Shown here piece by piece: positions 686 through 14,815 of a stretch of DNA of 64,000 nucleotides. The stretch comes from Planctomycetota bacterium. GTDB taxonomy: Bacteria; Planctomycetota; Phycisphaerae; Sedimentisphaerales; Anaerohalosphaeraceae. The notes under the pieces are model-generated. The model saw only the letters and a program-made list of their open reading frames with translations, did no database searches and was not told the DNA's origin. Each line of letters begins with the position of its first letter. Positions within the stretch are counted from its first letter, which is position 1. A program made the position numbers and the translations under genes. The DNA lies in assembly GCA_013349435.1 (NCBI GenBank), contig DUZQ01000003.1:1-64000 (forward strand). The letters are read 5' to 3'.

Positions 686-1157
686 GTCCAATCCAAAGAG
701 TTTTCGAAACTTGTCATCAATTAACAGCTAACAATACGAGCAAACACAATACCACATTTTATATTTACTCACAAAAACAAATTCAATTGACTGAAATAAT
801 ATCTATGCTGCAGCAATTATTGTCTTTTCCTGAGCAGGGACGGTTCTATCTGTTTCCTGGCACCTGTAGTGCTGTATCATGACTAACATTGTGAGAATAC
901 GAACGAGCTTTATTTGCTTTGGCTTTCTTAACCAAACTTAATTCCGGCACGGTTACGGCTATACGGATGGTGGCATTTTGCACCGGTAGTTTGTTGGTTG
1001 AATTGCATATTGCAGCCATCCTAAGTCGCCGTTGCTTTAAGTATAAGGCGATTCACTTTTTATAAGTGCTTGTACAGTCAAAAGATACATTTCTATTCTG
1101 CATTGTTCCCGGTTCCTGGCACGTTGTTTGCTAATAGTTTAGTTGATGCATGATGGA
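686..1157. other. intergenic region between divergent genes
   Basis: About 470 bases lie between the divergently read membrane-protein gene and the first NifX-like gene, with no convincing reading frame. The stretch should contain the promoters for both directions, but no strong -35/-10 pair stands out. Two short pieces resemble REP sequences associated with RAYT transposases (833-869 and 1104-1124). Confidence 0.5.
833..869. repeat. REP-like fragment (GGACGG ... CCTGGCACC)
   Basis: The stretch contains GAGCAGGGACGG followed by TTTCCTGGCACC. Related pieces occur at 1104-1124 (CGGTTCCTGGCACG) and 3262-3284 (AGCACCGTCCCTGGG). This word pattern is common in repeats mobilised by REP-associated tyrosine transposases (family knowledge from memory). 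No transposase gene is present in the window, so these would be relics. Confidence 0.3.
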
Positions 1158-1571
1158 ATGAAGATAGCGATACCAGTATGGAAGGGGTATGTCTCAAACG
1201 TTTTTGATTTTGCCGGCAAACTTTTGCTGGTGGAAATCGATAACGGTGAAGTGACAAACCGGTCTGAAATTCCGTTGGGTAGCTGTTCTTTGCTGCAGCG
1301 CGCAGAAAAGTTGAAGAGTCTTGAGGTGAATGTGGTTGTTTGCGGAGCGATTTCGCATGCACTTGCAAATATGATTGCGGCATCGGGGATTCAGCTTCTG
1401 CCATACGTAACGGGCGGTGTTGATGAAATATTGCAGGCGTATTTGAAGGGCCAACTGGTACAGCCGCGATTTGCCATGCCCGGTTGTTGGCCTGGTGCAC
1501 GCAAAGGCTTTGGGCGTCGCAGAGGAGGCGGGCGCAGACGACTTCGGCAAGGCGGCAGGCGGCGGTTTTAA
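1158..1571 (+). CDS. NifX/orange-protein-like protein with Arg/Gly-rich tail
   Basis: A 137-residue protein of the dinitrogenase iron-molybdenum cofactor biosynthesis fold (NifX/NifB C-terminal/ORP family). Its N-terminus MKIAIPVW decides the start at 1158 over a TTG and an ATG slightly upstream. The domain covers about residues 1-105. It ends in a tail from about residue 115 that is almost entirely Arg and Gly (RRRGGG, RRRRF). Family members bind metal-sulfur clusters; no nitrogenase gene is nearby, so a role in the orange-protein type of Mo/Cu or Fe cluster handling is more likely than nitrogen fixation. The basic tail could bind nucleic acid or acidic partners. Confidence 0.8.
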   Translation: MKIAIPVWKGYVSNVFDFAGKLLLVEIDNGEVTNRSEIPLGSCSLLQRAEKLKSLEVNVVVCGAISHALANMIAASGIQLLPYVTGGVDEILQAYLKGQLVQPRFAMPGCWPGARKGFGRRRGGGRRRLRQGGRRRF

Positions 1572-1597: not shown

Positions 1598-1960
1598 ATG
1601 AAAGTTGCTGTAACGGCACAGGGAAAAGAGATGTCAAGCGAAATTGATACCAGGTTCGGGCGGGCACAATGGCTCGTTGTGGTTGATACCGAAACGGGCG
1701 ATTTTCAGGCTCACGATAACGTAGTGAATCTCAATGCCGTCCAGGGAGCAGGCATTCAAACCGGGCAGAACATTGCCAATCTCGGTGTCGAGGCGGTGAT
1801 AACCGGCAACGTAGGCCCGAATGCTTTCAAGACGCTCAATGCAGCCGATGTAAAAATATTTCTCGCAGAGAAGCAGACGGTTGTTGATGCAATAGAAGCA
1901 TTTAAGGCGGGCACACTAAAAGAGGTAAACCAGGCGAATGTTGAGGGACATTGGATTTAG
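1598..1960 (+). CDS. NifX/orange-protein-like protein
   Basis: A compact 120-residue single-domain member of the same family (MKVAVTAQG, RFGRAQW, VITGNVGPNAF). The ATG at 1598 follows a GAAGGGAACC ribosome-binding region 26 nt after the previous stop. There is no cysteine, as is usual for ORP-type proteins that hold a cluster non-covalently. The GNVGPNAF loop is shared with the ferredoxin fusion encoded at 3616. Its place in a run of NifX, DUF5320 and MinD-like ATPase genes supports a role as a metal-cluster carrier, though the metal is unknown. Confidence 0.85.
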   Translation: MKVAVTAQGKEMSSEIDTRFGRAQWLVVVDTETGDFQAHDNVVNLNAVQGAGIQTGQNIANLGVEAVITGNVGPNAFKTLNAADVKIFLAEKQTVVDAIEAFKAGTLKEVNQANVEGHWI

Positions 1961-1977: not shown

Positions 1978-2460
1978 ATGCCGGGATTTGATGGTACAGG
2001 TCCGTTGGGTCAAGGACCGATGACGGGACGTGGTCTGGGGTTTTGTGTTTTGACGAGTTCCGAAGCAAATCCGAACGAGACACAAGGTGTTGCGGGATTA
2101 CAGGCTGTCCCCATTAGTCAAAAAATCACAAATTTTGAAAATACCCTAAAGGAGGTGATTAATATGCCTCGTGGAGATGGAACAGGTCCTGCCGGAATGG
2201 GACCGATGACAGGTAGAGCCGCGGGTTTTTGTGCCGGCTATCCCGTGCCGGGCTATATGAATCCTGTTGTCGGAAGGGCAGGTTTTTATGGTGCCGCCGT
2301 ACCAGGGCCTTACAGTGCCGGCGCCTACGGCTATGGCGTACCTTATGCGGGCAGGATGAATCCGTGGCTGGGCGGGGGTTTCGGCATCGGCCGCGGTTTC
2401 GGACGAGCAAGAGGCTGGGGCAGAGGTCGCAGGGTCGGCAGATTAGGTTATTGGTATTAG
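1978..2460 (+). CDS. DUF5320-type protein, long frame with two N-terminal motifs
   Basis: The frame from the ATG at 1978 (ribosome-binding AAGGAG just upstream) gives 160 residues. It has the DUF5320-type opening MPGFDGTGPLGQGPMTGRG, about 40 residues of different composition, and then a second complete opening (MPRGDGTGPAGMGPMTGR) with its Gly/Arg/Tyr-rich body. The linker DNA contains a near-perfect Shine-Dalgarno for the second ATG. It is best read as two neighbouring genes that lost the intervening stop, or as one gene with two starts. DUF5320 proteins are small and of unknown function, often beside NifX/ORP genes in anaerobes. Confidence 0.55.
   Translation: MPGFDGTGPLGQGPMTGRGLGFCVLTSSEANPNETQGVAGLQAVPISQKITNFENTLKEVINMPRGDGTGPAGMGPMTGRAAGFCAGYPVPGYMNPVVGRAGFYGAAVPGPYSAGAYGYGVPYAGRMNPWLGGGFGIGRGFGRARGWGRGRRVGRLGYWY
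2148..2160 (+). promoter_or_regulatory. near-consensus ribosome-binding site inside an open frame
   Basis: AAAGGAGGTGATT is almost the full complement of the 16S rRNA 3' end and sits 3 nt before the ATG at 2164. It lies within the coding frame that began at 1978, which is why I favour an independent start at 2164. Confidence 0.7.
2164..2460 (+). CDS. DUF5320-type Gly/Arg/Tyr-rich protein
   Basis: A 98-residue product from the internal ATG behind the very strong ribosome-binding site. It begins with the motif (MPRGDGTGP, GPMTGRAAGFCAGYPVPGY) shared almost word for word with the protein starting at 2766. The body is rich in Gly, Tyr and Pro and ends RGWGRGRRVGRLGYWY. One cysteine is present in GFCAGY. 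No catalytic motif is visible and the function is unknown. The neighbours suggest a small accessory or scaffold protein for the NifX-like cluster proteins. Confidence 0.7.
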   Translation: MPRGDGTGPAGMGPMTGRAAGFCAGYPVPGYMNPVVGRAGFYGAAVPGPYSAGAYGYGVPYAGRMNPWLGGGFGIGRGFGRARGWGRGRRVGRLGYWY

Positions 2461-2485: not shown

Positions 2486-2512
2486 GAAGTTATTCCAGAA
2501 AGGATGTATATT

Positions 2513-2740
2513 ATGCCAAGAGGCGATGGTACAGGGCCTACTGGCCAAGGGCCCGGTACGGGACGTGGTATGGGTCGAGGCCAGGGCCAGGGAAGAGGCA
2601 GAATGGGCGGTCCGTTTGCAGCAGGGCCGGGCGGTAATTGCGTCTGTCCGAAATGCGGAGCAACAGCTGCTCATACCGCAGGACAGCCTTGTAATGCAAA
2701 AAGTTGTCCAAAGTGTGGAACGAAAATGACAAGAAGTTAA
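2513..2740 (+). CDS. DUF5320-like small protein with paired CPKCG motifs
   Basis: A 75-residue protein from the ATG at 2513; AGAAAGGA upstream fits this start better than the ATG at 2504. It opens with the DUF5320-type MPRGDGTGPTGQGPGTGRG and continues through a Gly/Arg/Gln repeat. It ends with CVCPKCGATAAHTAG and SCPKCGTKMTRS, two CxxC pairs plus a His that could bind zinc or a small Fe-S centre. It looks like a DUF5320 head joined to a zinc ribbon. Function is unknown; it is part of the run of similar genes. Confidence 0.75.
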   Translation: MPRGDGTGPTGQGPGTGRGMGRGQGQGRGRMGGPFAAGPGGNCVCPKCGATAAHTAGQPCNAKSCPKCGTKMTRS

Positions 2741-2765: not shown

Positions 2766-3194
2766 ATGCCAGGTGGCGATGGAACAGGTCCTGGAGGTTT
2801 AGGACCAATGACAGGTAGGGCTGCGGGTTTTTGTGCCGGCTATCCGGTGCCGGGTTATGCAAATCCTGTTGGCGGACGTGGTATGGGTATGGGCTGGGGC
2901 CGTGGCGGTGGCTGGGGTCGAGGTCGAGGTTTTGGTTGGGGCAGAGTTGGATATGGCTTTCCTGCTTATGGTAGTGCTGTGAATCCATACGCTTATGGTG
3001 GTGCTGTGAATCCATACGCTTATGGTGGTGCTGTAAACCCATATGCATATGGTGGTGTGCCGTTTGCGCCAACAGTTGCACCTCAGCAAGAACTGGATGG
3101 TCTCAAAGGCCAGGCCGAATATCTTGAAGATACCCTTGACGGAATCAAAAAACGCATAGAACAGCTCGAAAGCCAGGAAAGCGGTAAGGACTAA
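2766..3194 (+). CDS. DUF5320 protein with YAYGGAVNP repeats and coiled-coil tail
   Basis: A 142-residue protein with a GAAAGGAG ribosome-binding site before the ATG at 2766. Order: DUF5320 opening (residues 1-31), Gly/Trp/Arg-rich stretch (about 36-65), three nine-residue repeats ending YAYGG (about 71-97), and a C-terminal heptad-like segment (LDGLKGQAEYLEDTLDG, about 110-135) typical of the short coiled coil that closes DUF5320 proteins. It probably oligomerises through the tail. No enzyme motif is present. The same head-and-tail pattern recurs in the fusion gene at 3616. Confidence 0.8.
   Translation: MPGGDGTGPGGLGPMTGRAAGFCAGYPVPGYANPVGGRGMGMGWGRGGGWGRGRGFGWGRVGYGFPAYGSAVNPYAYGGAVNPYAYGGAVNPYAYGGVPFAPTVAPQQELDGLKGQAEYLEDTLDGIKKRIEQLESQESGKD
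2976..3056 (+). repeat. three tandem 27-bp coding repeats
   Basis: Units 2976-3002 and 3003-3029 are identical; 3030-3056 differs at a few silent positions. Each encodes AVNPYAYGG, so the array can change in length without breaking the frame. Confidence 0.9.
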
Positions 3195-3408: not shown

Positions 3409-3603
3409 ATGCCGATATTTGAGTACAGATGTAATAAATGCGGACATAAGACGGAATTTCTGGAAAAAAGCGGCGGCAGAAGCAAGCACGTTTGCGAAAA
3501 GTGTGGAAGCTCGGATATGCAGAAATTATTTTCGGGCTTTTCCGTTGGTCAGAGCAGTCAGTCCGGCGGTTCCTGCCCAACCGGTACGTGTCCCCTTGGT
3601 TAG
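3409..3603 (+). CDS. FmdB-family zinc ribbon protein
   Basis: A 64-residue protein opening MPIFEYRCNKCGHKTE with a second pair CEKCGSS, the FmdB regulatory zinc-ribbon pattern, and ending in a Ser/Gly tail with two further cysteines (GGSCPTGTCPLG). The ribosome-binding site AAGGAG precedes the ATG at 3409. FmdB-type proteins are common small metal-binding proteins and the name comes from a formamidase gene region; no regulatory role has been established generally. Only 12 nt separate it from the NifX-ferredoxin fusion, so the two are likely translated from one mRNA. Confidence 0.85.
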   Translation: MPIFEYRCNKCGHKTEFLEKSGGRSKHVCEKCGSSDMQKLFSGFSVGQSSQSGGSCPTGTCPLG

Positions 3604-3615
3604 AAAGGATATTTT

Positions 3616-4509
3616 ATGAAAATCGCAGTAACATCGACAGGGCCCGGTCTGGATGACAATGTGGAGGCCCGATTCGGCCGATGTCCTTATTTTTTGATTA
3701 TTGATAGTGATACGATGCAGTTCGAGGCGATTGAAAATCCCAACCTTGCCCTCGGCGGTGGTGCGGGGATACAGTCCGCGCAGTTGATGTCTGAAAAAGG
3801 AGTAACAGCGGTACTCACCGGCAACTGCGGCCCCAATGCGTTTAACGTATTCGGCCAGGCGGGCATACAGGTTGTCGTTGGTGTCAGTGGGCGGGTCCGC
3901 GACGCCGTTGAGCAATTCAAAACAGGGGACTTTTCTTCTGCTTCGGGACCTAATGTAGCCAGCCATTTTGGTGTAAATACTGCTCCTCAGGATGCAAATC
4001 CGGCGCAAATAAATCCAGGCCCTTCGGTCGGTGGTATGGGAGGCGGCATGGGCCGGGGTATGGGCCGAGGCGGCGGTATGGGACGCGGTATGGGTAGAGG
4101 CATGGGTCGAGGCGGCGGTATGGGTCGTGGTATGGGTATGACGGCAGCGATGGGCATGCCTCCAGCTGGCGGGGCAGCAGGTTTTGGGACCGATGCCGGT
4201 GGACAGAATCCTGAGCAGGAATTGGCTGCCCTAAAGCAGCAGGCCCAAATGCTTGAGCAGCAGAAACAAGAACTCAATCAAAGAATAACTCAATTTCAAA
4301 CCGGCCGCAGGGCAGTTGCAATTGTTGACCCTGAAAAATGTGCCGGTTGCGGAATATGCCAGGATGTGTGTCCGACAGGCGCAATCTCAGTCAACGGCCA
4401 GGCACATATTAATGATGAAATCTGTACAGCCTGTGCCGCCTGCGTTTCGGAATGTCCCAATCAGGCAATCGTAATCGCCCAGAAAAACTTGAAAAACCCC
4501 GGTAGATAG
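3616..4509 (+). CDS. NifX/ORP domain - MGRG repeat - coiled coil - 2[4Fe-4S] ferredoxin fusion
   Basis: A 297-residue protein with four parts: a NifX/ORP domain (residues 1-115; RFGRCPYFL, LTGNCGPNAF), a linker built from repeated GMGRG words (about 136-180), a short coiled coil (AALKQQAQMLEQQKQELNQR, about 205-225), and a bacterial-type ferredoxin with two CxxCxxCxxxCP clusters (about 242-285). The linker and coil resemble a DUF5320 protein, so the gene looks like a NifX, DUF5320 and ferredoxin joined in one chain. It could pass electrons to a cluster held by the NifX domain. It follows fmdB by 12 nt. Confidence 0.85.
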   Translation: MKIAVTSTGPGLDDNVEARFGRCPYFLIIDSDTMQFEAIENPNLALGGGAGIQSAQLMSEKGVTAVLTGNCGPNAFNVFGQAGIQVVVGVSGRVRDAVEQFKTGDFSSASGPNVASHFGVNTAPQDANPAQINPGPSVGGMGGGMGRGMGRGGGMGRGMGRGMGRGGGMGRGMGMTAAMGMPPAGGAAGFGTDAGGQNPEQELAALKQQAQMLEQQKQELNQRITQFQTGRRAVAIVDPEKCAGCGICQDVCPTGAISVNGQAHINDEICTACAACVSECPNQAIVIAQKNLKNPGR

Positions 4510-6515: not shown

Positions 6516-7661
6516 ATGTCGGATAAAGCCAAAAGCAGTTCCCCAAATGAGCTTACTGCACACTATATTCTGCGTTGGTTCTCTCCCCGGTGGTTTATAT
6601 TTGTGATGGGTACTGGAGCATTAGCCAATATATATCAACTTATCGCGGGTAAGCCGGATGGTTTGCTTCATAATCTGGCTGTCTTATTCCTGACACTTGC
6701 AATCGCTGTTTTCTTCACAGCTTTAGTCTTTCTTATCGTCCGTTTTGTAGTAGGCATGGATTGTATTTTGAAGGAATGGAGGCATGCAAGCCTTATCCAG
6801 TTTTACTCAACCATTTCCATTGCGGCGGCCGTATGCGCTACGGGTTTGTTCAATGTTCCCCTTTCGTTTATTTCAAAAGCCCTGGCACATAATTTAGCTG
6901 TTATATTCTGGTGGATATCTCTTGTGGTAGGGCTGTTTTTTATTTTCTTTACACCCTTTAAGGTAACCAGCGGCAATCACGCACAGCCGAGAAGAGCTTT
7001 AGGTTTCTGGTTTTTAGCTCCGGTTGGTCTTTTTGTTTTGGTTTTTGCAGGTAATTTCTGGGCCTTGCAAATGCCGGACCAGGCTCATGTAAAAAATATC
7101 TTGTTTCTTAATACCCTCATATTAGGAGTTGCTATTCCTCTTACTACAATAATTTACACGATTGTTTTATTCAGGGCTCTGTTCTACAACTTTCCCCGCA
7201 GAGATGTTGCTCCGAGTTTTATGATAGGTGTTGCCCCGGTGGGAGTCTCAGTTATTGCGATAAATACAATAATACCGGTACTCGGAAAAAGCGGTATCGC
7301 GATTATTACCCCCGAAGCCCTTGCCCCTTTTATTAAAGTTATATCCTTATTGCTCTGGAGTTTTGGTTTATGGTGGCTCATTTATGCGATCCTTACGATA
7401 GTGCTTTATATGGTGAAACACAGGGTTCCTGTAACTTTAGGGTACTGGGCTTTTATATTTCCGCCGGCGGCATATACTATCGCTACTTTAATCCTCGCAA
7501 AGTCACTAAGTCTGCCTTTACTAAAGAATTTTGCAGTGGTTTTGACGATAGTATTTACTCTGTGGTGGGCCGTGAATTTCGTTCTTACTATCAGAGGAAT
7601 GGTCAATAAAACTATTTTTGATGTCTCTCCAACGTTTAAGGGCGACATCCCATATCTATAA
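6516..7661 (+). CDS. TehA/SLAC1-family anion channel or C4-dicarboxylate transporter
   Basis: A 381-residue inner-membrane protein with about ten hydrophobic segments and the family opening RWFSPRWFIFVMGTGAL. The SLAC1/TehA/Mae1 family moves anions such as malate, sulfite or nitrate. Substrate cannot be read from the sequence. It starts 18 nt after the porin gene behind GAAAAGGAG and is followed 20 nt later by a pentapeptide-repeat gene, so an operon is likely. Confidence 0.85.
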   Translation: MSDKAKSSSPNELTAHYILRWFSPRWFIFVMGTGALANIYQLIAGKPDGLLHNLAVLFLTLAIAVFFTALVFLIVRFVVGMDCILKEWRHASLIQFYSTISIAAAVCATGLFNVPLSFISKALAHNLAVIFWWISLVVGLFFIFFTPFKVTSGNHAQPRRALGFWFLAPVGLFVLVFAGNFWALQMPDQAHVKNILFLNTLILGVAIPLTTIIYTIVLFRALFYNFPRRDVAPSFMIGVAPVGVSVIAINTIIPVLGKSGIAIITPEALAPFIKVISLLLWSFGLWWLIYAILTIVLYMVKHRVPVTLGYWAFIFPPAAYTIATLILAKSLSLPLLKNFAVVLTIVFTLWWAVNFVLTIRGMVNKTIFDVSPTFKGDIPYL

Positions 7662-7681
7662 TTGTAAAGGAAGGTAAAATT

Positions 7682-8311
7682 ATGACGAAGAAACTGATTT
7701 TCATGAAGGGCCAGGAGTTTATACAAAAGATTTTGTCGGGAGAAAGAGATTTTGCAAACATAGAATTAGAGCAGGATTTCGATTTGTCCGGCTATGAAGG
7801 ATTTGATGAACTGCAAACCTATCTTAAGAATGCCGACCTCGAAGAAAAACCACTGATTGTGGAAAATTCTAAATTCAGGCAATTAGATGCCGACGGTCTA
7901 TATTTGCCCTTCTTGAAAGCCAATAATGCGAATTTTAAGCACGGCACTTTTATGTCAGCAAACTTTGAGAGTGCTCAATTCAAAAATGCTGATTTTCGGT
8001 ATGCCAGATTAGCCCAGGTAAATATGAAAAATTCAAATTTAGAAAACTCGGATTTAAGACAAGCAGATTTGTATTTATCATCTTTAATTGGAACAATATT
8101 GACAGGGGCCGATTTTTCCGGAGCAAGTTTGCAGTTCACAAATATGCAGGCCGCGGATGTAAAAGGCATTAAGAATTTAGGGCTGGCACGTTTTGTCGAG
8201 ACAACAAATTTTCAGTTTGCCGATTTAACTGAAAAAGAAAAAAGTGTTATTAGAAGAGAATTGTGGGCCCAACAGGGCAAAAAAAGAAGATTATTCGGAG
8301 GTAGCGGATAA
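7682..8311 (+). CDS. pentapeptide-repeat protein
   Basis: A 209-residue protein whose middle (about residues 55-160) follows the A(D/N)LXX pattern (ANFESAQFKNADFRYARL, NSNLENSDLRQADL), which folds into a right-handed quadrilateral beta-helix. The N-terminal 50 residues are acidic. Some such proteins mimic DNA and protect gyrase; most have unknown roles. The ribosome-binding site AAAGGAAGG precedes the ATG at 7682, and its position behind porin and channel genes suggests co-expression. Confidence 0.85.
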   Translation: MTKKLIFMKGQEFIQKILSGERDFANIELEQDFDLSGYEGFDELQTYLKNADLEEKPLIVENSKFRQLDADGLYLPFLKANNANFKHGTFMSANFESAQFKNADFRYARLAQVNMKNSNLENSDLRQADLYLSSLIGTILTGADFSGASLQFTNMQAADVKGIKNLGLARFVETTNFQFADLTEKEKSVIRRELWAQQGKKRRLFGGSG

Positions 8312-8374
8312 ATACAAAAGTGGTTGTTAAGAATACATTATCAAGAAGGAAATTGAAAGAAAGGTATTTGTGTT

Positions 8375-8782
8375 ATGGAAAATACATACTTGTTTAGGGC
8401 AAAGAGTTCAAAATCTGTTCAGGATTTTATCGAAAGCTTAAAGGAAAATGCGTCGAAGTTTGATTATTATGTGCGATATGTTTTTAATAAAAGACAAGAG
8501 TACGAGCAACGCGGTATTAGTGTTGAAGACCATTTTAATGCCTATCAGGTTATGTTGTGCAGTTTCAATTATAAGGGTTTGCAGAAGAATATTGAGCGGC
8601 TTGCGGTTTTGCTGCTGCCGAAACAGGTTGTAGTATATGAAAGAGATGGAGTTACAAATATACTTTATTTACCATTTAGCGAAGAATTTATCAGGGAAGT
8701 ATTACCTGAGGATGAACAGTTTGCGGTTAATCAAAGCAAGGCTTGTCGAAGAATAATAAAATTGATTGAAGCGTCCAAATAA
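8375..8782 (+). CDS. small protein with weak DUF302-like similarity
   Basis: A 135-residue soluble protein. The segment YQVMLCSFNYKGLQKNIERL followed by LLPKQVVVYERDG is similar in order to the cysteine-plus-LPC/vvYE pattern of DUF302 proteins, which often lie beside sulfur and thiol redox genes. I base this on recall, so the match is weak. It follows the pentapeptide gene by 63 nt with AGAAAGG upstream. No catalytic residues can be named. Confidence 0.5.
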   Translation: MENTYLFRAKSSKSVQDFIESLKENASKFDYYVRYVFNKRQEYEQRGISVEDHFNAYQVMLCSFNYKGLQKNIERLAVLLLPKQVVVYERDGVTNILYLPFSEEFIREVLPEDEQFAVNQSKACRRIIKLIEASK

Positions 8783-8822
8783 ATTGGAACAGGCCGGTAT
8801 AAATTTCTCACAGAGATAACAA

Positions 8823-9044
8823 ATGGAACAGACATTTAGCGCAACGGAAATAAAGGTTGGTTTTCATCCGGCCGGTTACAGGATAGATAAAACGGCATCG
8901 CCGATGAACAGATATACGAAATGGGACATTTTAGAGGGTGATAAATGGTGTAATCCGAAGCCGGTTTGTTTCGACTCTTTGCCGCAGCAAGGCTGGATTG
9001 CAGTGGATAAATTTGATTGGAACGAAGTTAATACGACAGGATAA
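8823..9044 (+). CDS. hypothetical 73-residue protein
   Basis: The frame (MEQTFSATEIKVGFHPAGYR to NEVNTTG) ends 14 nt before the transporter gene and follows the previous one by 40 nt. It contains two cysteines and several Trp and Lys residues but no motif that I recognise. The ribosome-binding site is weak. Its tight place in the gene run is the main reason for accepting it. Confidence 0.5.
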   Translation: MEQTFSATEIKVGFHPAGYRIDKTASPMNRYTKWDILEGDKWCNPKPVCFDSLPQQGWIAVDKFDWNEVNTTG

Positions 9045-9058
9045 CGGAACGAAAGATT

Positions 9059-9862
9059 ATGTTAGCCCTTGGTATAGCCATCCTATCCATTCTGGTCATT
9101 TCGGTGCTGATGAGCATGACCGGTCGTGGTGGAGGCAACTTTTATGTTCCTGTGTTAGTGGCTTGCGGATTGCCTATGCTTCGAGCGGCTACATCTGCAC
9201 AATGTATCCTGCTGTGCACGGCTATGTCGGCTGCGCTGGTCTTTCAGAAGGGCCGTTCAATTGACTGGAAGCTTGCGATGGTGATCGATCCACCAACAGA
9301 TGTGATGGCTTTAGTGGGTGGATACTATGCACATCTTTTGCCGGGCGGGGTTTTGAAGTTTGTTTTTGCCGGTTTACTTCTATTGTCGGGCTTGTTCATG
9401 TTGCGACCTGTGAAAAACAGACCGCTTCTCAAAAAGAAAAAATTTGGCTTCTGGCATTGCAAGTTCGGTGAGTATGAATATGATGTGAATTTGTGGTTGG
9501 CCCTGCCGATCACCGCGGTGACCGGCTTGATTGCGGGAATGGTCGGGATATCCGGAGGGTCTTTCAAGGTCCCATTGATGGTTATTGGCTGTGGTGTACC
9601 CATGCGCGTGGCGGTAGGCACATCTTCTGCCATGGTCGCAGCCACGGCTTTTATGGGAATGGTGGGGCACTGGGCAGCCGGTGATTTCAACACGTTGTGG
9701 ACTGTTCCCATGAGCGCCGCGGCGATAACAGGAGGACTTGTTGGCGGTGTATTTTCTCTTAAAACAAAGCCGAAAAACCTTAAAAAAATATTCGCTTTTA
9801 CAACTTTTGGAGCGGCTTTATTTATGGTAATAAACTCATGGCTATTACTTCGAAATGGATAG
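9059..9862 (+). CDS. TauE/SafE-family permease
   Basis: A 267-residue membrane protein with two sets of hydrophobic segments carrying the family repeats: GGGNFYVPVLVACGLPMLRAATSA in the first half and GMVGISGGSFKVPLM with a following GVPMRVAVGTSSA in the second. TauE/SafE proteins are proposed exporters of sulfite, sulfoacetate or related organosulfur anions. The gene lies 8 nt before an Fe-S ATPase gene and near DsrE and OsmC genes, which fits a sulfur theme. Confidence 0.85.
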   Translation: MLALGIAILSILVISVLMSMTGRGGGNFYVPVLVACGLPMLRAATSAQCILLCTAMSAALVFQKGRSIDWKLAMVIDPPTDVMALVGGYYAHLLPGGVLKFVFAGLLLLSGLFMLRPVKNRPLLKKKKFGFWHCKFGEYEYDVNLWLALPITAVTGLIAGMVGISGGSFKVPLMVIGCGVPMRVAVGTSSAMVAATAFMGMVGHWAAGDFNTLWTVPMSAAAITGGLVGGVFSLKTKPKNLKKIFAFTTFGAALFMVINSWLLLRNG

Positions 9863-9870
9863 GTGGCAAT

Positions 9871-10728
9871 ATGCAAATAGCGGTCGCAAGCGGTAAAGGT
9901 GGTACGGGCAAAACAACAATAGCAACGAATCTGGCATGCTCAATTGCTCAGACGGGCGAAGTTGTTCAGTATCTTGATTGTGATGTTGAGGAGCCGAACG
10001 GCCATATATTTTTGAAGCCGGATATAGCGGAAACGCAAAGTGTTACTATCGGCGTGCCCCAGGTTGATACCGAATTGTGTAACGGCTGTGGGGAATGCGG
10101 CAGGCTTTGTCAGTACAGCGCTATCATTTGCCTTAAGGACAAAGCGATGACTTTCGAGCAGTTGTGTCATTCATGCGGCGGCTGTATGCTGGTTTGCCCG
10201 ACCGGGGCCATCAAGGAGAAAGCCAAGGAAATCGGCTTTGCCGACTTTGGTTCGGCAAACGGCGTGAAGTTCGGGCAGGGTCGACTGAAAATCGGTGATA
10301 TTCATACACCGTCATTGATAAAACGAGTTAAAACCAATTCACTCGATGAAGGCGTGGTCATTATCGACGTTCCTCCCGGGACCTCCTGCCCTGTGATTGA
10401 GGCGGTCAAAGGTGCCGATTTTGTCTTGCTGGTAACCGAGCCGACACCGTTCGGATTGAATGATTTGAAGTTGGCGGTATCGATGGTAAGAGAACTGAAG
10501 CTGCCTTTTGCTGTGGTGGTAAATCAGAGCGATATAGGCGACGCGAAGGTGCACCAGTATTGTGCCGGGGAAGATATAGAAATAATTCTTGAGATACCGA
10601 ACGACCGCAGAATCGCAGAGGCTTATTCGGTCGGCAGGATGATTGTTGACGTTTTGCCCGAATACAGGAAAGATTTTGCAGGTTTATACAAAAGTGTCAC
10701 CGGAAAGCTTAAAGGCTCAAACAAATGA
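9871..10728 (+). CDS. MinD-like ATPase with 2[4Fe-4S] ferredoxin insert
   Basis: A 285-residue protein from the ATG at 9871 (GGTGG upstream). The deviant Walker A ASGKGGTGKTT (residues 6-16) and DCDVEEP mark the MinD/CobQ fold. A ferredoxin insert (about residues 70-115) carries CNGCGECGRLC and CHSCGGCMLVCP; DVPPGTSCP is the switch region. Proteins of this type occur in pairs beside orange-protein genes in Desulfovibrio and other anaerobes (the ORP complex). A second copy is at 13120. The next gene overlaps its stop by 4 nt. Confidence 0.9.
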   Translation: MQIAVASGKGGTGKTTIATNLACSIAQTGEVVQYLDCDVEEPNGHIFLKPDIAETQSVTIGVPQVDTELCNGCGECGRLCQYSAIICLKDKAMTFEQLCHSCGGCMLVCPTGAIKEKAKEIGFADFGSANGVKFGQGRLKIGDIHTPSLIKRVKTNSLDEGVVIIDVPPGTSCPVIEAVKGADFVLLVTEPTPFGLNDLKLAVSMVRELKLPFAVVVNQSDIGDAKVHQYCAGEDIEIILEIPNDRRIAEAYSVGRMIVDVLPEYRKDFAGLYKSVTGKLKGSNK

Positions 10729-11120
10729 AAAGAGATGACCCCGATTTTATGGAAAGGATAAGCCTCGACCTGGAGACTCGGCGGGTGGCGTGTAAAATTC
10801 TTGACGTAAAAGATATGACGGGCAAAGAAGATTTGAAAAAAGCTTACCGGCGAGTCGCAATGAGGTTTCACCCTGATAAAAATCCGAACGACCCTGATGC
10901 GAAAAAGAAATTTACACTTGCCAAATGTGCGTATGAGCTTCTGGCGGAGGATAAACCGTGCGCCGAGTTGCTGAATGAAATTAATTCCTGGCCGGGTGTT
11001 CCCGATGACAGCAAATACAGGCTTGATAATCCTTGGGGGCATTTTTTGTGGTGGCGTGAAAAGTTTTTCGATTCCGAAAAAAGCCAAGGCGCAAAGGGCA
11101 AACGTTCTTCCTGCATTTAA
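10725..11120 (+). CDS. J-domain protein
   Basis: A 131-residue protein overlapping the preceding ATPase gene by ATGA. A J-domain (about residues 25-75) is visible: LKKAYRRVAMRFHPDKN with the HPD tripeptide that stimulates DnaK ATPase. No Gly/Phe or zinc-finger region of DnaJ follows; instead there is a Trp-rich tail (NPWGHFLWWREKFF). It may recruit Hsp70 for assembly of the neighbouring Fe-S proteins, much as HscB does for IscU; that is inference from the overlap. Confidence 0.85.
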   Translation: MKRDDPDFMERISLDLETRRVACKILDVKDMTGKEDLKKAYRRVAMRFHPDKNPNDPDAKKKFTLAKCAYELLAEDKPCAELLNEINSWPGVPDDSKYRLDNPWGHFLWWREKFFDSEKSQGAKGKRSSCI

Positions 11121-11146
11121 CAAAGCTTTCTTAGCCGGGTTTTGTT

Positions 11147-11740
11147 ATGGAAAAATACCTCAAAGCATGCAAAACGGATTTTTGGAAGGAGATTTTCAAG
11201 GCTGAGTTAGGCTATATTTTGCAAGAGCTGGAAGGTGCCAAGGATATTTTGAGTGTCGGTTGTGGACCGGCGATTATAGAAGCCGGCTTGAGCGGACACG
11301 GTTTTAAGGTTACAGGTTTGGATGTCTCTAAAGAGGCTTTGGAGCAAGTGCCGAACGGTATCAGAACGGTGGCAGGCTCGGCGGAAAACATGGATTTTGC
11401 AGATTCTTGTTTTGATGCGGCTATTTATGTTGTTTCTCTTCAGTTTATCGAAAAATATAAGGAGGCTATTAAAGAAACCGCTCGAGTTCTGAGGCCGAAT
11501 GGCGGGATTTTGGTTATGCTGCTCAATCCGGTGTCTGAGTTTTTTAAGAAAAAGGCCGGCGACCCAGCCTCTTATTTAAGCAGGATTAGGCATACGGACC
11601 TAAAAGCGATTGAGAAAACGATGGCAGAACATTTTTCCATACAAACGGAGTACTTTTTAGGAATCAATGGAACGGAAATATTCCAAAGCCGGAATCCGAA
11701 ATTGGCTGCTTTGTATATTGTAAAAGGAACAATAGAATAA
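11147..11740 (+). CDS. class I SAM-dependent methyltransferase
   Basis: A 197-residue protein with a Rossmann-type motif I (ILSVGCGPAIIEAGLS, residues 38-53), motif II (VTGLDVSKEAL) and the motif IV region (FDAAIYVVSLQFIEKYKEAI) of the Methyltransf_11 type. The substrate is unknown. It stands 27 nt after the J-domain gene and 1 nt before the DsrE gene, so it belongs to the same operon. Confidence 0.85.
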   Translation: MEKYLKACKTDFWKEIFKAELGYILQELEGAKDILSVGCGPAIIEAGLSGHGFKVTGLDVSKEALEQVPNGIRTVAGSAENMDFADSCFDAAIYVVSLQFIEKYKEAIKETARVLRPNGGILVMLLNPVSEFFKKKAGDPASYLSRIRHTDLKAIEKTMAEHFSIQTEYFLGINGTEIFQSRNPKLAALYIVKGTIE

Positions 11741-11741
11741 C

Positions 11742-12095
11742 ATGAAAACGCTTTTTATATTTAACAGAAATCCTTACGACGGAACCGATGTAACCTGGAA
11801 CGGCCTTCGATTGGCTGAGCACCTGCTCAACATTGGTTTGGAGGTGAACATATTTTTGATGAACGATTCGGTCGATTTGGCTCGTGATGTAACCAAACCG
11901 ACTGAAGGTTACTTTGATTTGGGGAAAATGCTGAAGGATTTAATTGCTAAAGGCGTTCCAGTTAAAGTATGTGGTACCTGCAAGGTACGATGCGGTATCC
12001 ACAAGGGAGAGCCTTACTTTAAAGGAGCCCAGGAGGCAAAGATGACTGAACTGGCACAGTGGGTTGCGGATGCGGATAAGGTTATTTCGCTTTAG
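11742..12095 (+). CDS. DsrE/DsrF-like protein
   Basis: A 117-residue protein of the DsrE fold: MKTLFIFNRNPYDGTDVTWNGLRLA, a middle VNIFLMNDSV and a cysteine loop VCGTCKVRCGIHKGE. Family members carry persulfide sulfur (TusD, DsrE) or act in small-molecule binding. The two closely spaced cysteines of CGTC and the third in RCG could hold persulfide or metal. One base separates it from the methyltransferase gene. Confidence 0.85.
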   Translation: MKTLFIFNRNPYDGTDVTWNGLRLAEHLLNIGLEVNIFLMNDSVDLARDVTKPTEGYFDLGKMLKDLIAKGVPVKVCGTCKVRCGIHKGEPYFKGAQEAKMTELAQWVADADKVISL

Positions 12096-12104
12096 GCGTT
12101 ATTG

Positions 12105-12224
12105 ATGGGTCCTGTAAAACTATCTGATAACTTTTACGACAACATTAAGCCGCGTTTGTATCAACGTGTGGGCAGGGAACTGCGTTCGGCCAATCATGTG
12201 TTAGATAAAGGCCAAAGTTTATGA
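12105..12224 (+). pseudogene. methyltransferase N-terminal stub
   Basis: The 39-codon frame MGPVKLSDNFYDNIKPRLYQRVG... leads to [11 protein letters not shown], where intact class I methyltransferases of this kind continue with VLDLGCG. The frame ends in a TGA overlapping the ATG of the OsmC gene (TTATGA), so a deletion seems to have removed everything from motif I onward. It could still be translated as a leader coupled to osmC. Confidence 0.5.
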
Positions 12225-12664
12225 AACATGAAAGAACGTACATATTTAAGAATGCCGTATCTCGAAACCAGGATGAACCGGCAAAAGTGATATTTAGTGG
12301 TCATGGCCAGATGGAAATAGGAGCCGCTGCCGAATTTGGCGGCAGCGGACAAGGGCTGAATCCGGAGGAGATGTTTGTCGCTGCGATTAACAGTTGTTTG
12401 ATGAATACGTTTTTTTATTTTACGCAGAAGTTTAAAATCGAGATTTTGTCATATAGTTCGCAGGCTTCAGGCCAGCTTGAAAAACAGTCTGATGGTTTTC
12501 GGTTCACCAATGTCGAAGTTAGAGCAAAGGTTCAATTGCCTGAAGAAAAGTCTGCTGAAAAAATTCAGGAAGCGGGCCATTTAGCTGAGAAATATTGTCT
12601 TGTCTCTAAATCTGTCGCCTGCCCTGTAAATTATCAGTTGGAAATTGAGATTAAAGGAAAATAA
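12221..12664 (+). CDS. OsmC-family protein
   Basis: A 147-residue OsmC/Ohr-fold protein. The pattern [22 protein letters not shown] (about residues 46-67) contains the first cysteine, and [15 protein letters not shown] the second. These are the two positions used by OsmC and Ohr for peroxide reduction, so peroxidase or persulfide-related activity is plausible. Its start is fused to the stop of the methyltransferase stub. It lies between DsrE and ferredoxin genes. Confidence 0.85.
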
Positions 12665-12684: not shown

Positions 12685-13050
12685 ATGCCATGGGTAAATG
12701 AGGATATGTGTGTGGGTTGTGGCGTATGTGTTGATGATTGCCCGGTAGGGGCGATTACACTGAAACAGGACCAGAAAGCGATTATCAACGAAGACGAATG
12801 TATTCGATGCGGTCGCTGTCACGAAGTATGTCCCGAGGAAGCTGTCCGGCACGATAGTGAAAGGATTCCGCAGGAAGTTGAAGCAAATGTAACAAAGACG
12901 ATAGAACTTTTAAAGCATTTTAAGACACCACAGGAACAGGGCCAATTTTACGAACGGATGATTCGCTACTTTAACAAAGAAAAAAAGGTTGCCGACCAGA
13001 CCATAGCCAAAATAACCGATATGAAAAATGCCATAAGCAAGGAAAGATAA
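12685..13050 (+). CDS. 2[4Fe-4S] ferredoxin with helical C-terminal extension
   Basis: A 121-residue protein: [16 protein letters not shown] (residues 9-24) and [16 protein letters not shown] (about 39-54) bind two [4Fe-4S] clusters. Beyond residue 60 a charged, probably helical tail of about 60 residues ([15 protein letters not shown]...) is unusual for simple ferredoxins and could dock to a partner such as the MinD-like ATPase encoded next. AGGAG precedes the ATG. Confidence 0.9.
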
Positions 13051-13119: not shown

Positions 13120-14007
13120 ATGAAGGAATTAGTAGTAATAAGCGGCAAAGGCGGGACGGGCAAGACAAGTATTGTGGCGGCATTTGCGAACCTTGCACAA
13201 AATGCCGTATTTGCCGACTGCGATGTTGATGCAGCCGACCTGCATTTGGTATTGGAGCCGAGAGTAAAACAGACTTTTGATTTTTCCGGCGGCAAGCAGG
13301 CGTCGATTATTGCTGAAAAATGTATCGGCTGCGGCAAATGCCGACAACTGTGCAGATTTGACGCGATAAACTTCAATGGTCCGGCAAACGACGTGGTAGC
13401 CGGGACCTTCACTGTTGACCCGATTTCCTGTGAAGGTTGTAAGGTATGCGTCCAGTTCTGCCCTGCAGATGCAATTGAGTTTAACGATAGTATAAACGGT
13501 CAATGGTTTATATCCGATACACGTTTCGGAACAATGGTTCATGCCAGGCTCGGCATTGCCGAGGAAAACAGCGGAAAACTCGTAACTCTTATTCGCAAGG
13601 AGGCCAAAAGAATAGCCGGCGAGGAAAAAAAGGATTTGCTTATTGTTGACGGTTCACCGGGAATCGGCTGTCCGGTTATTGCGTCGATAGCGGGGGCTGA
13701 TTTGGTTTTGGTGGTTACAGAGCCGACACTTTCCGGAAAACACGACTTAGGCAGGGTCGCGGAGTTGGCTGCCGGCTTCAATATCCCGACTCTGATTGCG
13801 ATAAATAAATTCGACCTGAATCCTGAAATGTCGGAGCAAATTGAAGAAGATGCCCGAAAGCACAATATAAAAGTTGTTGGAAAGATACGTTATGACAAGG
13901 CCTTTACCAAAGCGCAGATTCTCAAATGCTCGGTAACCGAATATACCGGCGGTGCGGTGGCAGAGGATATAAAAGCTTTATGGAGGAATGTTACCTATGC
14001 CTTTTAA
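13120..14007 (+). CDS. MinD-like ATPase with 2[4Fe-4S] ferredoxin insert, second copy
   Basis: A 295-residue homologue of the protein at 9871. Walker A is SGKGGTGKTS (residues 8-17), followed by ADCDVDAADLHL; the insert has CIGCGKCRQLC and CEGCKVCVQFCP; DGSPGIGCP is the switch region. The last codons overlap the Mrp gene. Two such ATPases plus Mrp and NifX-like proteins make up the ORP-type gene set, which in Desulfovibrio forms a complex (family knowledge). Confidence 0.9.
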   Translation: MKELVVISGKGGTGKTSIVAAFANLAQNAVFADCDVDAADLHLVLEPRVKQTFDFSGGKQASIIAEKCIGCGKCRQLCRFDAINFNGPANDVVAGTFTVDPISCEGCKVCVQFCPADAIEFNDSINGQWFISDTRFGTMVHARLGIAEENSGKLVTLIRKEAKRIAGEEKKDLLIVDGSPGIGCPVIASIAGADLVLVVTEPTLSGKHDLGRVAELAAGFNIPTLIAINKFDLNPEMSEQIEEDARKHNIKVVGKIRYDKAFTKAQILKCSVTEYTGGAVAEDIKALWRNVTYAF

Positions 14008-14815
14008 CGAAGAACAGCGAAAAAGGATGCAGCTTGAGCAGGAACAGATTAAAAAAAACATAAAACGTATCAAACACCAGATACTTGTCCTCAGCGGAAA
14101 AGGGGGTGTGGGCAAGAGCAGCATAGCGGTCAACTTAGCCGTCTGGCTTTCGATGAAGGGCAGGAAGGTCGGTCTGCTTGATATTGATATTCACGGGCCG
14201 AGTGTTCCGAAATTACTGAATCTTGAGCAGAGCGAACTGCGGGGTATAGGAGATAAAATCGAGCCGATTTCGTATAGCGACAAATTAAAAGTGATAAGTA
14301 TAGGTTTTTTAATACAGGATGAAAATGCCGCTTTGATATGGCGCGGCCCTATGAAGCATAACGTCATCAAACAATTTGTTTCCGATGTTTCCTGGGGCAG
14401 TCTGGATTACCTGATAGTCGATTGCCCGCCGGGAACCGGAGATGAGCCTTTGACGGTGGTACAGCTTTTAGGCAAGGCCGACGGCGCCGTTGTTGTTACC
14501 ACGCCTCAGCAGCTTGCCGTTACCGATGTCAGAAAGTGCATAACATTTTGCAGGCAACTGAATCTGCCCGTCCTGGGGGTAGTTGAAAATATGAGCGGCT
14601 TTGTGTGCCCGCACTGCAATAAGAGAACCGACATTTTCGGCGGCGACGGCGGCAGGCAAATGGCAACAGACCTTGACATACCGTTTTTGGGGGGCATCCC
14701 GATGGACCCCAATATGGTTTGGGCCGCTGATATGGGCAGGCCGTTTATCAGTTACAGTAATAACAGTCCTGCAGCCAAGGCCCTCAACGATGCATTCGAG
14801 CCGTTGCTCAGATAA
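13997..14815 (+). CDS. mrp: Mrp/NBP35-type Fe-S carrier ATPase
   Basis: The ATG at 13997 has GGAGG at the right distance and gives 272 residues; an ATG three codons upstream is too close to it. Motifs: VLSGKGGVGKSS (deviant Walker A), DIDIHGPSVPKLL, DCPPGTGDEPL, and the C-terminal FVCPHCNK whose CxxC bridges a shared [4Fe-4S] cluster in Mrp/ApbC dimers. It probably delivers clusters to apoproteins. It overlaps the preceding MinD-like gene by 11 nt, so the two are coupled. Confidence 0.9.
   Translation: MPFNEEQRKRMQLEQEQIKKNIKRIKHQILVLSGKGGVGKSSIAVNLAVWLSMKGRKVGLLDIDIHGPSVPKLLNLEQSELRGIGDKIEPISYSDKLKVISIGFLIQDENAALIWRGPMKHNVIKQFVSDVSWGSLDYLIVDCPPGTGDEPLTVVQLLGKADGAVVVTTPQQLAVTDVRKCITFCRQLNLPVLGVVENMSGFVCPHCNKRTDIFGGDGGRQMATDLDIPFLGGIPMDPNMVWAADMGRPFISYSNNSPAAKALNDAFEPLLR

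Follow-up and report, generated by a model that had tools for sequence, protein, structure and literature searches.

In D. vulgaris, the ORP complex is described as containing Orp3 and Orp4, which have ferredoxin motifs, Orp8 (ORP), which binds a small Mo-Cu sulfide cluster, and MrpORP (PMC6345978). According to the same description, a CXHFGHCE motif conserved in the NifX half of MrpORP is proposed as a cluster ligand, MrpORP-GFP is polar in the cell, and a role in cell division is supposed for the complex. The orp operons of D. vulgaris are reported to be sigma-54 dependent (PMC3897727). In Pyrococcus furiosus, IssA (PF2025) is composed of a NifX domain and a Gly-rich cationic tail with a pI of 10.7, and stores iron and sulfide as thioferrate (PMC5524996). 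As described there, the NifX domain binds Fe and S, and the tail is proposed to wrap the polymer. In vitro, IssA restores the [4Fe-4S] of ferredoxin when DTT is given, whereas neither the plain reductant dithionite nor TCEP has this effect; its authors therefore infer that a thiol of unknown identity serves in vivo. That account also names a non-thermophilic clade, 'IssX', with high pI and a Gly-rich tail, as uncharacterised in 2017. FmpB (DMR_41100) of Desulfovibrio magneticus RS-1 is an iron biomineralisation protein in which a NifX/NifB domain is fused to a redox domain (PMC4287615). FmpB is a precedent for the pairing of NifX with a redox domain in the making of iron minerals. Its redox part is a magnetochrome domain accompanied by a PDZ domain, and a ferredoxin does not figure in the description of the protein. 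The magnetochrome profile PF18509 has no match in the genome under study and none in any control genome either, so this search is no evidence of absence.

Here we describe a fusion protein that joins a NifX-type domain, a Gly-rich tail, a coil, and a ferredoxin. Searches of the open-licence literature listed no description of such a fusion or of the family to which it belongs, and DUF5320, a family related to its middle part, is mentioned in only two papers there and appears in no title or abstract. A paper on NifX of ANME-2a, as far as its account of NifX shuttles goes, contains nothing on this fusion (PMC12622379).

The window, which is the whole stretch of 64,000 nucleotides that was analysed, encodes the fusion and a run of genes around it (Table 1). 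The earlier note had read the protein as NifX, MGRG repeats, coil, and ferredoxin in one frame, and both Pfam and AlphaFold2 agree with it. Specifically, the Pfam family Nitro_FeMo-Co matches residues 13–102 far above its cut-off of 26.3 bits, DUF5320 matches residues 140–226 (29.8 bits against a cut-off of 27, profile positions 11–98 of 99) with a possible contribution from low-complexity sequence, and the Fer4 motifs lie within residues 236–285. The AlphaFold2 model, which is based on a 40-row alignment, has a mean pLDDT of 78.6. The NifX fold and the ferredoxin fold are confidently modelled, the pLDDT is under 50 across most of residues 121–196, and a single helix continues directly into the ferredoxin. 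At the DNA level, the MGRG stretch is a short imperfect tandem repeat with a period of 42 bases and 2.6 copies. The architecture of NifX domain, tail, coil, and ferredoxin in one chain is established; its chemistry is what we infer below.

Table 1. Coordinates of the fusion, its parts, and the neighbouring features in the window
Feature	Position	Strand	Remarks
Sigma-54 promoter-like site TGGCACG-N4-TTGCT	1117..1132	+	Perfect sequence match; 25 nt before likely start of first NifX gene
Free-standing NifX-type protein, first gene of run	1158..1571	+	PF02579 27.8 bits; alternative upstream start 1143
Free-standing NifX-type protein, no Cys at the two positions	1598..1960	+	PF02579 69.8 bits
DUF5320 protein, N-terminal signature in two copies	1978..2460	+	86 bits
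DUF5320-like N-terminus and zinc ribbon	2504..2740	+	24.5 bits, under cut-off of 27
DUF5320 protein with C-terminal coil	2766..3194	+	74.6 bits
FmdB-type zinc ribbon	3409..3603	+	Ends 12 nt before fusion
Three-part fusion protein, 297 aa	3616..4509	+	One uninterrupted frame
NifX-type domain (IPR003731/PF02579), residues 1–119	3616..3972	+	Pfam 87.7 bits; best PDB match 2wfb (ORP)
Disordered cationic tail, residues 120–197	3973..4206	+	pLDDT < 50; MGRG repeats at about 4030–4137
Helix/DUF5320-type C-terminal coil, residues 199–229	4210..4302	+	AlphaFold2 helix; coil HMM 21.7 bits
2[4Fe-4S] ferredoxin domain, residues 231–291	4306..4488	+	Fer4 52.2 bits; eight Cys
MinD/ParA-type ATPase, inserted 2[4Fe-4S] motifs, Orp3/Orp4-like	9868..10728	+	Profile matches
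Separate 2[4Fe-4S] ferredoxin	12685..13050	+	
Second MinD-type ATPase with 2[4Fe-4S] motifs	13120..14007	+	Profile matches
Mrp/NBP35-type Fe-S carrier ATPase without NifX domain	13988..14815	+	333 bits; 275 aa

The own genome (3.14 Mb in 139 contigs, 92% complete) has two further fusions, which lie on contigs C136 and C119 and are each 65% identical to that of the window in the alignment. Both are preceded by an FmdB-type gene, and downstream of each come genes for a small 'HPAGYRIDK' protein and for a MinD-ferredoxin ATPase. We collected relatives by scanning genome contigs with two patterns, one of which contains Cys23, and retained the best 80 of 537, so the proportions among the 80 are not population frequencies. 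Among these best 80, the ferredoxin is in frame in 22, absent from 54, and in 4 the gene runs off the contig. Going by record titles, the 22 fusions come from Planctomycetota (15), Krumholzibacteriota (2), and Zixibacteria, Fibrobacterota, Pseudomonadota, Myxococcota, and an unclassified genome (1 each); the Myxococcota member is a 'Deltaproteobacteria' MAG mapped to this phylum by lineage. The fusion is spread over Planctomycetota and about five other phyla. It occurs in 8 of 40 near genomes, the own genome included, some of which are probably the same as loci of the pattern scan. Of 199 genomes sampled evenly across the phylum, 7 have matches at E <= 1e-50, and in 3 of the 7 there are full-length matches. 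The fusion is thus patchy.

A single origin of the fusion was considered and not upheld on a poorly resolved tree of the NifX domain (120 columns), which needs six changes of the fusion label, at least two of them forced by its starred branches. L027 and L028, identical in domain lengths and scores, were counted once in this tree. An assembly or frameshift artefact would be a different explanation of the single frame, and the repeat region could in principle collapse, which is no positive point in its favour. The paralogues and the relatives stand on independent contigs, and dN is low against dS in the NifX, coil, and ferredoxin parts, although this supports a weak statement only because many dS values are saturated. 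We therefore regard the chance of an artefact as negligible, in agreement with the earlier note.

Among solved structures, the NifX domain matches ORP of D. gigas best by sequence (2wfb, 82.2 bits), followed by MTH1175 (1eo1, 76.5 bits). Foldseek gives 2wfb as the top fold match with a TM score of 0.88 by target length, and further matches to 1o13, 1rdu, NafY, and NifX. Hence, ORP is the nearest to this domain in both fold and sequence. The second free-standing NifX protein of the run scores 60.3 bits against ORP, below the fusion, and for the first no match to ORP appears at E values up to 1; the domain of the fusion is therefore the most ORP-like of the run. The name of the domain is the one point in favour of a function in nitrogenase cofactor assembly. 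We reject this role as extremely improbable, as the nitrogenase component PF00148 has no match in the 92%-complete own genome, while the same search matches in 4 of 14 control genomes.

The NifX domain of the fusion has two invariant cysteines, Cys23 in RFGRC and Cys71 in GNCGPNA. Cys71 is kept in all 83 main proteins, in the context GNCGP in 81 and G[AI]CGP in 2. Cys23 is kept in 83 of 83 as well, a count that carries a bias because this residue stood in one of the two patterns by which the set was fetched, whereas Cys71 stood in neither. These loci also contain 49 sister NifX genes, of which 46 lack both motifs and 3 have only the second. ORP and MTH1175 lack both cysteines; 2wfb has Ala and Val at the respective positions. 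Judged by its place in the domain, the CXHFGHCE motif of MrpORP may correspond to Cys23. ORP is a single domain of 120 residues and also lacks the tail, coil, and ferredoxin.

The first 55 residues of the tail contain 23 Gly, 8 Met, 6 Arg, one acidic residue, and no aromatic residue. Its computed pI is 12.0 in the window's fusion and in 20 of the 22 fusions overall, the exceptions being L021 (10.8) and L052 (4.9). In its NifX-type domain at the N terminus and the disordered tail behind it, which is cationic and rich in Gly, the fusion agrees with the published description of IssA and IssX. The described IssA tail differs in being rich in aromatic residues (14 of 70), as opposed to the aromatic-free, Met-rich beginning of the fusion's tail. 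IssA is described as having 179 residues, too few for an added ferredoxin, and a single Cys, located in the tail; it hands Fe and S over to ferredoxin in vitro, and the fusion has a ferredoxin attached.

The earlier note called the middle part a DUF5320-like linker. This description stands for the Gly-rich stretch and the C-terminal coil, to which the match with DUF5320 (PF17253) is confined; the N-terminal DUF5320 signature GTGPxGxG is present in none of 28 aligned fusions. We examined the coil with an HMM built from 19 free DUF5320 C-termini, one of which fits poorly, on 59 of the 83 proteins, the remainder being too short in the other 24. Of these 59 coils, 52 score higher than any of 2950 plain shuffles; for 2950 heptad-preserving shuffles, the same is true of 48. 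The score of the window's coil compares with 10.1 and 18.1 bits for the best plain and heptad-preserving shuffles, respectively. A coil common to the fusion and DUF5320 would suit a structural or localisation role, in which coil and tail assemble with DUF5320 proteins and MinD-type ATPases and position the complex in the cell, the Fe-S parts being sensors or stabilisers. The polar MrpORP-GFP and the supposed action of the ORP complex in cell division, as described for D. vulgaris (PMC6345978), point in the same direction. We consider this role improbable, as it leaves the conserved Cys71 and the eight conserved cysteines of the ferredoxin unexplained.

The ferredoxin part has two CX2CX2CX3C motifs in a ferredoxin fold, as expected of a 2[4Fe-4S] ferredoxin. 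All eight cysteines are kept in 27 of 28 aligned fusions; the fusion of L016 lacks one. In the fetched set, the ferredoxin-free form is the commoner one (54 of 80, compared with 22 of 80 fused); L067, from the cultivable Desulfatitalea alkaliphila, is an example. Split forms were found as well. In L061, from Phycisphaerae, the gene for NifX, tail, and coil ends with QQLEQEG and a stop codon, and a gene for a 2[4Fe-4S] protein of 58 residues begins 5 nt later; this break is the point where the fusion joins coil to ferredoxin. In L075 and L051, 2[4Fe-4S] genes for 57 and 83 residues lie 104 and 32 nt downstream of the NifX-tail gene, respectively. The split forms therefore lend natural support to the parts belonging together. 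A 2[4Fe-4S] gene, mostly for a MinD-type ATPase, lies within 1.5 kb downstream in at least 18 of the 54 ferredoxin-free forms, a lower bound since the nearest annotated neighbour or small ferredoxin was counted and some loci end early. With that count, the idea that a neighbour always provides the ferredoxin in these forms was not upheld.

The run contains free-standing NifX, DUF5320, and 2[4Fe-4S] genes, as the earlier note had stated of the three parts. Within the run, the FmdB gene follows its upstream neighbour at a distance of 214 nt, a gap that a common transcript reaching the fusion would have to cross; an FmdB gene is present in 13 of the 22 fusion loci. DUF5320 genes occur in 20 of 22 fusion loci and 39 of 58 other loci. 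DsrE, OsmC, TauE, and SLAC1-type genes also surround the fusion. Specifically, a SLAC1-type anion channel (6516–7661), a TauE/SafE-type exporter (9059–9862), and DsrE (11742–12095) lie inside the run, a set that hints at the handling of sulfur oxyanions. A small conserved protein without a Pfam match is encoded at 8823–9044 (GFHPAGYRIDKTASPMN); it occurs in 7 of the 22 loci with a fusion and in 1 of the other 58.

The sigma-54 promoter-like site ahead of the first NifX gene recurs across phyla, in 15 related loci. Among the 32 homologues of this gene with enough upstream sequence, 15 have such a site within 170 nt upstream of the start, where 0.1 would be expected from shuffles; 14 of the sites are located at 11–37 nt and one at 95 nt. 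In the same test, sites are present at 1 of 89 ORP-like NifX genes, 1 of 40 genes for DUF5320 with coil, and 2 of 14 second NifX genes, and at none of 49 and 45 of the two MinD-type genes, none of 32 Mrp genes, and no FmdB gene. Allowing up to one mismatch, the window contains six sites, fewer than the 9.2 expected. One site per window is unremarkable by itself, so the weight lies on the comparison of the 32 loci. The own genome has two rpoN genes.

The run thus resembles the orp operons and complex of D. vulgaris. Compared by domain content, the two MinD-type ATPases each have two [4Fe-4S] motifs, and they are accompanied by an ORP-type NifX domain, an Mrp, and a promoter-like site, the last being a sequence match. 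Two differences were found. The NifX half by which MrpORP is defined is missing from the window's Mrp, which reaches 388.3 bits against the cut-off of 450 of the MrpORP profile (positions 2–248 of 365). In addition, no GAFTGA-type motif of a cognate sigma-54 activator is present in any frame of the window; four such frames occur in the 80 loci. Judged by its predicted genes, the run is an ORP-like operon with these two departures. Together with the ORP-nearest NifX domain, the IssA-pattern tail, and the commoner ferredoxin-free form, this assignment, likewise predicted, extends the earlier note.

The note had also taken the fusion as direct evidence that the three families work together. Cooperation is favoured by the split in L061, by the sigma-54 site at the head of the run, and by the DUF5320 and MinD-ferredoxin genes of the fusion loci. 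MinD-ferredoxin genes are present in 18 of these 22 loci and in 38 of the remaining 58. The word 'direct' is too strong, since fusion and synteny show association, not binding. The frequency of MinD-ferredoxin genes, the sigma-54 control known from D. vulgaris, and ORP as the closest solved structure also accord with an ORP-type carrier, in which the NifX domain would hold one discrete Mo-, Cu-, or Fe-sulfide cluster, tail and coil would do no more than gather partners, and the ferredoxin would swap electrons with the ferredoxin-bearing MinD-type ATPases. We regard such a carrier as possible but rather unlikely, as the 120-residue chain of 2wfb leaves no room for such a tail and has neither cysteine, whereas the strongly basic tail is retained in most relatives.

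Several variants of these genes were observed in related loci. The two MinD-ferredoxin ATPases form one frame of about 600–650 residues with four ferredoxin motifs in 14 loci (L021, L028, L038, L040, L041, L044, L047, L052, L055, L056, L058, L069, L070, and L081). Tandem double-NifX genes lie downstream in L086 (8697–9410) and L089 (8602–9294). In L149 (152–5267), which is contig C17 of the own genome at about 7151–12266, a protein of 1099 residues has PDZ domains and two NifX domains. Between the latter are several CxCPxC...THPxGxPC zinc-ribbon-like repeats, resembling the ribbon of the window's protein at 2504–2740. A gene for cation efflux (CDF) lies on one side of this gene and one for a trypsin-like protease on the other. 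This set of CDF, PDZ, and protease recalls magnetosome genes, and FmpB has PDZ plus NifX.

We propose that the fusion is a metal-sulfide scaffold with a built-in ferredoxin that works in an ORP-like operon for Fe-S handling, a reading that we judge to have an even chance of being correct. The proposal is made because the fusion has the two parts of IssA and, in addition, brings along what was supplied externally as DTT and apo-ferredoxin in the work on IssA: its domain contains thiols, and a ferredoxin is attached to it. Each chemical step is one that we infer by analogy. The NifX domain would nucleate an anionic iron-sulfide species, which the cationic tail would retain electrostatically, in the manner proposed for IssA. 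The coil may oligomerise the fusion or dock it on DUF5320 partners. With their thiols, Cys23 and Cys71 would detach pieces fit for transfer, and the tethered ferredoxin could be the first acceptor of [4Fe-4S] units and/or an electron source. The MinD-type and Mrp ATPases would hand the clusters on. The failure of dithionite and TCEP with IssA, as described, speaks against the ferredoxin acting as a reductant alone. As ORP holds a small Mo-Cu sulfide cluster, the cargo need not be a polymer. The aromatic-free, Met-rich tail, the deviating tails of L021 and L052, and the Mrp without a NifX half count against the scaffold reading.

These results bear on how anaerobes store iron and sulfide and make clusters, a subject in which IssA is the characterised thioferrate protein and its release step, as described, needs a thiol (PMC5524996). 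The fusion is a natural union of scaffold and ferredoxin with two conserved cysteines, and has natural split and ferredoxin-free versions, so that the release step can be tested by domain removal. It also links DUF5320 with ORP-like operons. A broader and more doubtful idea is that sigma-54-controlled operons in several phyla serve mesophilic iron-sulfide storage. An IssA-like thioferrate scaffold with its own ferredoxin and thiols might then combine storage, release, and [4Fe-4S] assembly on one chain, and the MinD-type and Mrp ATPases might deliver the products. The recurrence of the fusion in several bacterial groups suggests a self-contained unit that holds and releases iron-sulfur material.
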